Shown here: positions 1-1,989 of the stretch, piece after piece
Layout of the letters: each line of letters begins with the position of its first letter
How positions within the stretch are numbered: the first letter of the stretch is position 1
Assembly: GCF_900111745.1 (NCBI RefSeq)
Contig: NZ_FOIJ01000007.1
Span: forward strand, 1-64,000
Source: Stigmatella erecta
GTDB lineage: Bacteria > Myxococcota > Myxococcia > Myxococcales > Myxococcaceae
DNA: 64,000 nucleotides
Direction of reading: 5' to 3'
Position numbers and translations under genes: made by a program
The notes under the pieces: generated by a model
What the model saw: the letters and a program-made list of their open reading frames with translations, nothing else
Databases searched by the model: none
What the model was told of the DNA's origin: nothing

Positions 1-377
1 CTTTCGTCCGGCGGGGCGCGCCTTCTACTTCGTTCTTCGCCGCCCCGTCAACTTCGCCGGTGACTATTCTTTTTGTCAGTCCCCTGCTCGCTTCCTGGCC
101 CGCCTTGCTTCCGTCGGTCCAGTTCGTTCCAGGGGGCGCGGCTTCTACCTCTTCGCCGCCTCTCGTGTCAACCACCTGCGAGAGCCCTTCATTCCTTCTA
201 CCGCCACTGGCCCTGCTTCCATTGAAGACAGGATCGCCCTTCCAACCCACCACCGCCCGCCGTGCTCCACACCCCTCAACCGCCGGGGACGCGCCTTCTA
301 GATGTCAGCCAAGCGCTTGTCAACCACCCAACATTCCTGCCGGGCGCGACGTGGGGCGGCTTATCTACTAACTCCCT
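1..377 (-). promoter_or_regulatory. Gene-free region with three tandem sigma70-like promoters reading left
   Basis: No convincing gene lies here; the open frames have poor codon use. On the minus strand three similar promoter units follow one another. P1 has -35 TTGACA at 318-323, a 17-nt spacer and -10 TAGAAG at 295-300. P2 has TTGACA at 166-171, an 18-nt spacer and TAGAAG at 142-147. P3 has TTGACG at 46-51, an 18-nt spacer and TAGAAG at 22-27. Each -10 is followed directly by a GC-rich GCGCG-type discriminator. Tandem strong promoters with GC-rich discriminators are typical of stable-RNA operons, so an rRNA or other highly expressed gene is inferred just left of the window on the minus strand. 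The elements are seen directly; the target is inference. Confidence 0.6.
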
Positions 378-412
378 GGGCGACGCAAGAACTCTTCCGT
401 TCTGTGCCGCCC
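378..412 (-). terminator. Hairpin downstream of gmk
   Basis: An imperfect inverted repeat lies 55 nt after the gmk stop. Outer arms GGGCG/CGCCC (378-382 and 408-412) enclose inner arms AGAAC/GTTCT (388-392 and 399-403) around a 6-nt loop. There is no U-tract, so it may be a Rho-assisted terminator or processing site. It separates gmk from the promoter array further left. Confidence 0.35.
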
Positions 413-466
413 GGCGTCCCAGTCATGGGGGGAAACCCCTGGACGACCACGCCTTATTTCCTTTTG

Positions 467-1114
467 TCAGCGCCCCGTGTCCCCCGCGGGTGCTTTCTCC
501 AGCTTCAACATGGAGAGCTCTACCCGCCCCCGCCTGCAGCGCTCCGCTACCACCACCGAGCGCAGCTCCTGAAAGGCCCGCTCGAAGTCATCGTTGAGCA
601 CGATGTAATCGTACGAGGCAGTCCCTCGCTCAATCTCCGAGCGGGCAGCCAGCAGGCGGCGGCGGATCGTCTCGTCGGAGTCCGTCTTCCGGTCACGCAG
701 GCGCCGCTCCAGCTCCTCCATAGAGGGAGGCAGCACGAAGATCAGGACCGCGTCGGGGTGCTTGCGCTTGATTGCCTGGCCGCCCTGGACGTCGATGTCG
801 AAGATGGCGACGCCCCGGCGCGCCCGGGCCTCCTCCACCACGGACTGCGGACTGCCGTAGAAGTGGCCGTGGACTTCGGCCCACTCGACGAACTCGCTGC
901 GCTCGATCTTCTCCTGGAACGTGGCGACGTCGACGAAGTGGTAGTCGACTCCGTCCTGCTCTTTGCCCCGCGCCCTGCGCGTGGTGTAGCTGGCCGAGAA
1001 GATGGTGTTCGGCACTTCCTTGAGCAGCCGGTGCGCCAACGTGGTCTTTCCCGCTCCAGAGGGCGCGGAGAGGACCAACAACAACCCTGGGTGAAGTGAA
1101 GTGGACTCGTTCAT
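467..1114 (-). CDS. gmk: Guanylate kinase
   Basis: Phosphorylates GMP (and dGMP) with ATP to give GDP, an essential cytosolic step of purine nucleotide synthesis. The 215-residue product has the usual length for the family. The P-loop APSGAGKTT sits at about residues 17-25, and the GMP-binding region carries YTTRRARGKEQDGVDYHF followed by the EWAEVHGHFYGS stretch; IFDIDVQGG matches the conserved core of the fold. The ATG at 1114 overlaps the yicC stop by 4 nt (ATGA), so the two are translationally coupled. The yicC-gmk order is common in bacteria. No defect is seen. Confidence 0.97.
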   Translation of the reverse strand: MNESTSLHPGLLLVLSAPSGAGKTTLAHRLLKEVPNTIFSASYTTRRARGKEQDGVDYHFVDVATFQEKIERSEFVEWAEVHGHFYGSPQSVVEEARARRGVAIFDIDVQGGQAIKRKHPDAVLIFVLPPSMEELERRLRDRKTDSDETIRRRLLAARSEIERGTASYDYIVLNDDFERAFQELRSVVVAERCRRGRVELSMLKLEKAPAGDTGR

Positions 1115-1989
1115 TCGACGTTCTGCACCTGTTCACGGATGCGTTCGACTTCAGCCTTCATCGACACCACACGCGTGGAGATCTCCGCGTGCTGGCTCTT
1201 GGAGCCCGTCGTGTTCACCTCGCGGTGCATCTCCTGGACAAGAAAGTCCATGCGGCGGCCCGCAGGCTCGTTGCTCGCCATCAGGGCCCGGAATTGCTCC
1301 AGGTGGCTGGCCAGGCGCGTGACTTCCTCCGCGATGTCCGTCCGCTCCGCGAACATGGCCACTTCCTGGGCCAACCGTTGCGGCTCCACCGCGACGCCCC
1401 GTGCCAGCTCCGCCACCCGCTCCGTCAACCGCTGCCGGTAGTCTTCCACCGCCCGGGGGGCCAGGGCCGCCACTTCGCGGCTCCATCCCTCGATGAGCTT
1501 CAGCCGGGCATCCAGATCCGCCCGGATCGACTCCCCTTCCACCTGGCGCATCTGCTCCAGCGCACCGAGGGCCTGGTCCAGGGCCACGAGGACCGCCTTG
1601 CTGGCGGACTCCACGTCCATCCCCTTTTCCTCCAGCCGAATCACCCCGGGCTGGGTGGACACCTGGGTCCAGGACACTTCCGCGGGAGAGCCCAGCGCCG
1701 AGGCCAGCTCCCGGAAGGCACGCGCGTACTCCCGCGCCAGCGCCACATCCACCACCGGCACCGTGCCCGAGGCGGTCACCACCTGCCGCTTCACCTGTAC
1801 TTCCACCGAGCCTCGGGCCAGCCGGTCCTTGACCTGCTTCACCACGCCCGCCTCAAGCGCCGACAGATCCCGGGGCAGCCGGGCCTTCACTTCGCAAAAC
1901 TTGTGGTTGAGCGAACGAACCTCCACGGAGACTTCTTCGTCCCCTACCCGTGCGCGCCCCGCTCCAAACCCGGTCATGCTCTTGAGCAT
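1111..1989 (-). CDS. yicC: YicC-family endoribonuclease
   Basis: A YicC/YloC family protein of 292 residues, a normal length. It starts with the family hallmark MLKSMTGFG and has the conserved RSLNHKF motif near residue 30. The C-terminal half contains EVAMFAERTDIAEEVTRLASHLEQF and ends in the DFLVQEMHREVNTTGSKS-type signature of the DUF1732 domain. E. coli YicC is an RNA-cleaving enzyme involved in RNA turnover; the same role is inferred here. It lies first in a two-gene operon with gmk. A promoter (TTGACC, 17 nt, TAGCAA) sits immediately before the ATG, leaving almost no leader. Confidence 0.93.
   Translation of the reverse strand: MLKSMTGFGAGRARVGDEEVSVEVRSLNHKFCEVKARLPRDLSALEAGVVKQVKDRLARGSVEVQVKRQVVTASGTVPVVDVALAREYARAFRELASALGSPAEVSWTQVSTQPGVIRLEEKGMDVESASKAVLVALDQALGALEQMRQVEGESIRADLDARLKLIEGWSREVAALAPRAVEDYRQRLTERVAELARGVAVEPQRLAQEVAMFAERTDIAEEVTRLASHLEQFRALMASNEPAGRRMDFLVQEMHREVNTTGSKSQHAEISTRVVSMKAEVERIREQVQNVE

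Follow-up and report, generated by a model that had tools for sequence, protein, structure and literature searches.

The left edge of the window (the whole stretch of 64,000 nucleotides analysed, G000:C7:1-64000, where G000 is the window's own genome, Stigmatella erecta, and Cn its contigs) very probably holds the first members of a series of sigma-A promoters, arranged in tandem on the minus strand, from which an rRNA operon just beyond the left contig edge would be transcribed. The array is an ordinary housekeeping switch built from a known kind of promoter, and the odd letter at the end of its -10 elements is its main notable trait.

Promoter units at the left edge of the window

Three exact units of TTGAC(A/G), a 17/18-nt spacer and TAGAAG were located on the minus strand, just as the initial annotation had read them, together with two genes upstream:

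295..323, minus strand: most upstream promoter unit, TTGACA (323-318), 17-nt spacer, TAGAAG (300-295), then GCGCGTCCCC; from the sequence
142..171, minus strand: middle promoter unit, TTGACA (171-166), 18-nt spacer, TAGAAG (147-142), then CCGCGCCCCC; from the sequence
22..51, minus strand: promoter unit nearest the window edge, TTGACG (51-46), 18-nt spacer, TAGAAG (27-22), then GCGCGCCCCG; from the sequence
467..1114, minus strand: gmk, guanylate kinase, upstream of the array; NCBIfam TIGR03263, 221 bits
1111..1989, minus strand: YicC/YloC family endoribonuclease gene, upstream of gmk; NCBIfam TIGR00255, 245 bits

The three units, a series of at least two sigma-70-type promoters, sit in the stretch that separates the gmk stop (467) from the contig edge, and no recognised gene was found there, in line with the earlier description of gene-free DNA; an 84-aa open frame called mechanically at 2-253 on the minus strand overlaps the array region. 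Successive -10 elements start 153 and 120 nt apart, which agrees with the intervals of 120-150 nt given before, and transcription starts at 15, 135 and 288, as then predicted, would plausibly fit this spacing. The exact pattern TTGAC-N18/19-TAGAAG occurred three times in the whole 64-kb window, each time in the array, while 300 shuffled versions of the 64 kb held 0.007 matches on average and never more than 1. Among 20,000 dinucleotide shuffles of window 1-480, seven held one match and none held two or more. A generic sigma-70 scan, whose rule demands T at the last -10 position, called no promoter in window 1-1500. An 18-nt repeat (83%) was also noted with two copies, at 67-84 upstream of the 51-22 unit and at 458-475 on the gmk stop codon; it is probably due to chance or to an A-rich UP-like stretch. 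Within the window, a search for stable-RNA genes returned no tRNA and no Rfam match at gathering score.

GCGCGTCCCC, CCGCGCCCCC and GCGCGCCCCG are GC-rich discriminators of the stringent-control type. The initial annotation had called them GCGCG-type, which holds for the outer two units; the middle one reads CCGCG. Its remark that boxes and discriminators are alike in differing DNA was borne out by the pairwise comparison: in every pairing, the -10 agreed at 6/6 positions and the next 10 nt at 8/10, and the 30 nt upstream of the -35 matched at 7/30, 8/30 and 11/30. Near-identical cores in differing surroundings would also fit binding sites, and the units could in principle be a dispersed repeat or a protein-binding-site array without promoter function, a reading that we regard as extremely improbable: the cores are -35/-10 boxes with 17-18 nt spacing, conservation is concentrated in the boxes, the discriminator and a short A-rich stretch, and the P4rrnD promoter of Myxococcus xanthus, which is of the same type, yields sigma-A run-off transcription (PMC4182748).

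The array has a close experimental counterpart in P4rrnD, for which dependence on sigma-A, an 18-bp spacer and a consensus -35 have been published (PMC4182748). In M. xanthus AM003 (L093), the ChIP primers published for P4rrnD (PMC4182748) flank the -35 of a TTGACA-N18-TAGAAG unit, and their 70-nt amplicon ends inside the spacer of the unit, with the -10 just outside; in Myxococcus sp. CA023 (L076), the same primers delimit a 71-nt stretch of the same kind. From the published 18-bp spacer and the sequence of the locus, the -10 of P4rrnD is TAGAAG, and the match of the primer site to an array-type unit indicates that this kind of promoter is already known by experiment. One window unit has the P4rrnD boxes in full (TTGACA, 18-nt spacer, TAGAAG), another has a 17-nt spacer and the third reads TTGACG. 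Since a unit of this type is transcribed by the sigma-A holoenzyme (PMC4182748), the earlier label of 'sigma70-like' was apt.

The contig break in Stigmatella erecta

Window base 1 is the first base of contig C7. Window 1-173 has a copy of 97% identity in the last bases of contig C10, which stops at the matching base. This copy holds units at G000:C10:325520-325549 (the equivalent of the middle unit) and G000:C10:325640-325669 (the equivalent of window 51-22), with no third exact unit in the C10 copy of the array, and it follows a gene that we take, from its sequence, to be peptide deformylase-like. That C7 and C10 stop at the same base of a shared repeat is the pattern left by a collapsed multi-copy operon, as expected at an rRNA operon. 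No 16S or 23S match was obtained in the assembly of the window's own genome, which may reflect assembly gaps or masking. Here the contig ends before any downstream gene; in G003, G001 and G002 of the same genus, 16S lies downstream and co-directional, and these relatives suggest that 16S would likewise follow the array in S. erecta.

The exact unit was matched eight times in the own genome, five times at the two array ends and three times elsewhere, and the reversed control pattern was matched six times. Dispersal of the promoter motif over the genome was considered and rejected on these counts (three exact matches beyond the array ends vs six for the control). At least one of the three matches elsewhere does precede a ribosomal protein gene: a TTGACT-N17-TAGAAG unit with a C-rich discriminator was found at L095 1501-1529 (G000:C3:664949-664977), about 0.2 kb before a gene that we presume from its translation to be rpsF (ribosomal protein S6).

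The rRNA operon in relatives of the genus

Some part of window 1-480 was matched in all seven genomes searched from the genus, the own genome included. The gmk-linked array comprises five TTGAC-N-TAGAAG units both in G003 (1 contig) and in G001 (2 contigs), and 16S-tRNA-tRNA-23S-5S comes after it on the same strand. The second operon of G001 (L027) has four units before the same rRNA/tRNA genes, and contig G002:C45 has four, the last with TAGAAA, followed by 16S, two tRNAs and 23S. Unit 295..323 aligns in the gmk-linked array of four genomes. The equivalent of window 51-22 starts 510 nt (G003), 512 nt (G001, gmk-linked) and 514 nt (G002:C45) before 16S, with two further units in between in each of the three. 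From these distances of 510-514 nt, 16S would begin about 460 nt to the left of window base 1. The rRNA operon that the initial annotation had placed to the left is supported by contig G002:C45 and by the arrays orthologous to the window's, linked to gmk, in G003 and G001, all of which run into 16S; a reading of the raw sequence had very probably pointed to it correctly across an assembly gap.

A promoter series of this kind might alternatively serve another strongly expressed gene or a tRNA cluster. The same -35/-10 pattern does stand before the putative rpsF of the own genome and before a tRNA-Lys gene in L085. Nevertheless, the gmk-linked orthologous arrays of G003 and G001 run into 16S rRNA and both array copies of the own genome end at contig breaks, so that we consider this alternative very unlikely and retain the rRNA operon as the target of the array.

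Two further blocks on the minus strand drew attention. The block at 356-399 precedes the first unit and shows good conservation between four genomes at the gmk-linked locus: CGGAAGAGTTCTTGCGTCGC was exact in 4/4 of these loci, whereas the other loci compared gave no hit to it among the matches listed, even with 3 mismatches allowed. Within this block, TTGCGT-17-GATAAG-CCGCCCC (from 388) may represent a regulator site or a degenerate promoter. The second block, at 195-227, lies between the first and second unit and carries CTTCAATGGAAGCAGGGCC at 227-209, which also occurs with 2 mismatches in other gmk-linked loci among the matches listed. Its TAGAAG at 200-195 reads TAGGCG in two relatives and is thus probably no -10.

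Spread of the array beyond the genus

From a survey of 179 genomes, 27 chosen by hand were searched for 16S. Ten of them gave a match and 17 did not, which may reflect assembly gaps or masking. These ten genomes and four loci of the genus supplied 29 upstream regions, or 27 from 13 genomes after removal of two repeats, in which units were counted up to 1500 nt before 16S with six -10 variants accepted. Of the 27 distinct regions, 23 turned out to carry three to seven units. Neighbouring units are separated by 86-127 nt, and only the outermost pair of two loci has a wider interval, of 153 nt. Two units were counted in L115, whose contig is cut 400 nt upstream. The same-family relatives G137, G095 and G129 had 0, 1 and 1, indicating that the array is not universal in the family. 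In the retrieved stretches, gmk was upstream of an rRNA operon in at least eight of the ten genomes with a 16S match, and this adjacency therefore looks like old synteny. Across the units, an A-rich stretch was found 42-46 nt upstream of the -10 (AT 0.55-0.74 vs 0.37 on average), close to the place of the UP element, with its position as in E. coli.

A shorter pattern and its reversed control were counted in the 179 genomes, all of at least 80% completeness. Within the window's family, the pattern was present in 60 of 94 genomes (control, 14/94). Elsewhere in the phylum it was present in 19 of 85 (control, 11/85), which barely exceeds chance. When a stricter pattern, in which 18 bases are fixed, was run against the GTDB species collection, it recovered 62 stretches, of which 51 were titled as myxobacterial genera or Myxococcaceae MAGs. 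The 11 others comprised six Alphaproteobacteria (two Roseomonas), two records titled Comamonas, and a single record each from Acidobacteriota, from Rathayibacter and from a deltaproteobacterial MAG; some of them may be due to chance. Most stretches (54/62), none of which exceeds 8,000 bases, stop no more than 700 nt past a unit on its downstream side, presumably at a contig end, as broken rRNA operons would. In L025 and L069, units were present with no 16S downstream; part of each stretch reads N, and these loci thus speak neither for nor against the linkage of array and 16S.

Several matches are of interest in themselves. L048 and L082 (BNCN01000018.1 and BNCN01000009.1) bear the title Comamonas sp. 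KCTC 72670, yet they have an array of this kind too and share about 86-91% identity, for as much as 3.4 kb, with loci of M. xanthus, M. vastator and Myxococcus sp. CA023, which indicates that the record is probably misnamed or mixed. At L085 2149-2268 (minus strand), in a deltaproteobacterial MAG, a unit of the array type stands directly before the tRNA-Lys gene. In four genomes (L140, L141, L142 and L143), a TTGAC-N-TAGAAG-GGGC unit was found at the start of a cobalamin riboswitch, followed by what we take to be a TonB-dependent receptor gene.

The -7 base and CdnL

The base at -7 was surveyed with a pattern of TTGAC, a 16-18 nt spacer, TA and CCC soon after the hexamer. There were 131 matches, counting the window itself, related strains, two loci that occur twice and probably a few chance matches. 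The -10 ended in G in 104 of them, in A in 14 and in T in 13; among the 98 distinct matches it was G in 82, A in 10 and T in 6. Genes for a CdnL-like protein and for a CarD-like one that has RGRPPK repeats are present in the own genome; these names are our assumption, based on Pfam PF02559.

A G where the -10 would usually end in T may be connected with a need for CdnL. We suggest tentatively, as a possibility that is itself rather doubtful, that the rRNA arrays of these myxobacteria could have fixed the -10 TAGAAG (G at -7), which with the CCGCGCCCC discriminator would keep them CdnL-dependent, whereby one RNA polymerase-binding protein would gate the whole rRNA supply; CdnL would then play at these promoters the part that has been proposed for CarD in Alphaproteobacteria. 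In M. xanthus, CdnL was enriched at P4rrnD in vivo, and it stabilised the open complex and stimulated transcription in vitro (PMC4182748). Against this reading, CdnL was also present, at a lower level, at PB, which has another -10 (PMC4182748), and one unit near 16S reads TAGGTT in two genera (G063; G087, G089 and G090). Among the open-licence papers searched, none mentioned TAGAAG in connection with myxobacterial promoters and, by titles and abstract starts of the papers listed, none dealt with the -7 base of myxobacterial rRNA promoters, which is weak evidence of absence. If the G at -7 is functional, exchanging this one base, in the presence and in the absence of CdnL, would be a simple test of what makes the protein essential in M. 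xanthus. It would also link Myxococcota and Alphaproteobacteria, with CarD-type proteins acting in both on promoters that lack T at -7.

As a working model, the housekeeping RNA polymerase would bind separately at every unit of TTGACA, 17-18 nt, TAGAAG and a GC-rich discriminator, and start sites in series would raise the initiation rate. The GC-rich discriminators are predicted to give short-lived open complexes, and output would follow growth via CdnL and probably ppGpp/DksA.

Comparison with known systems

The rrn operons of E. coli have tandem P1/P2 promoters before 16S. The arrays described here are similar to these in having several sigma-70-type promoters in series before 16S and GC-rich discriminators. 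However, E. coli has two promoters, whereas most arrays here have three to seven, and their -10, TAGAAG, lacks the final T.

With P4rrnD, the window units share TTGACA, the 18-nt spacer and TAGAAG, as seen at the L093 primer site; P4rrnD was published as sigma-A dependent, and its name, P4, implies further promoters (PMC4182748). It is different from the window units in its discriminator, which is CTGACACCCC in L093 and not (G/C)CGCG(C/T)CCC, and the window holds the upstream members of its array. In Alphaproteobacteria, most promoters analysed lack the T at -7 that is highly conserved in other phyla, and CarD was proposed to compensate for it (PMC8407463). The likeness lies in primary-sigma promoters without T at -7 in an organism that has a CarD/CdnL-type protein; the array belongs to another phylum, however, and the trait was observed here on rRNA promoters.
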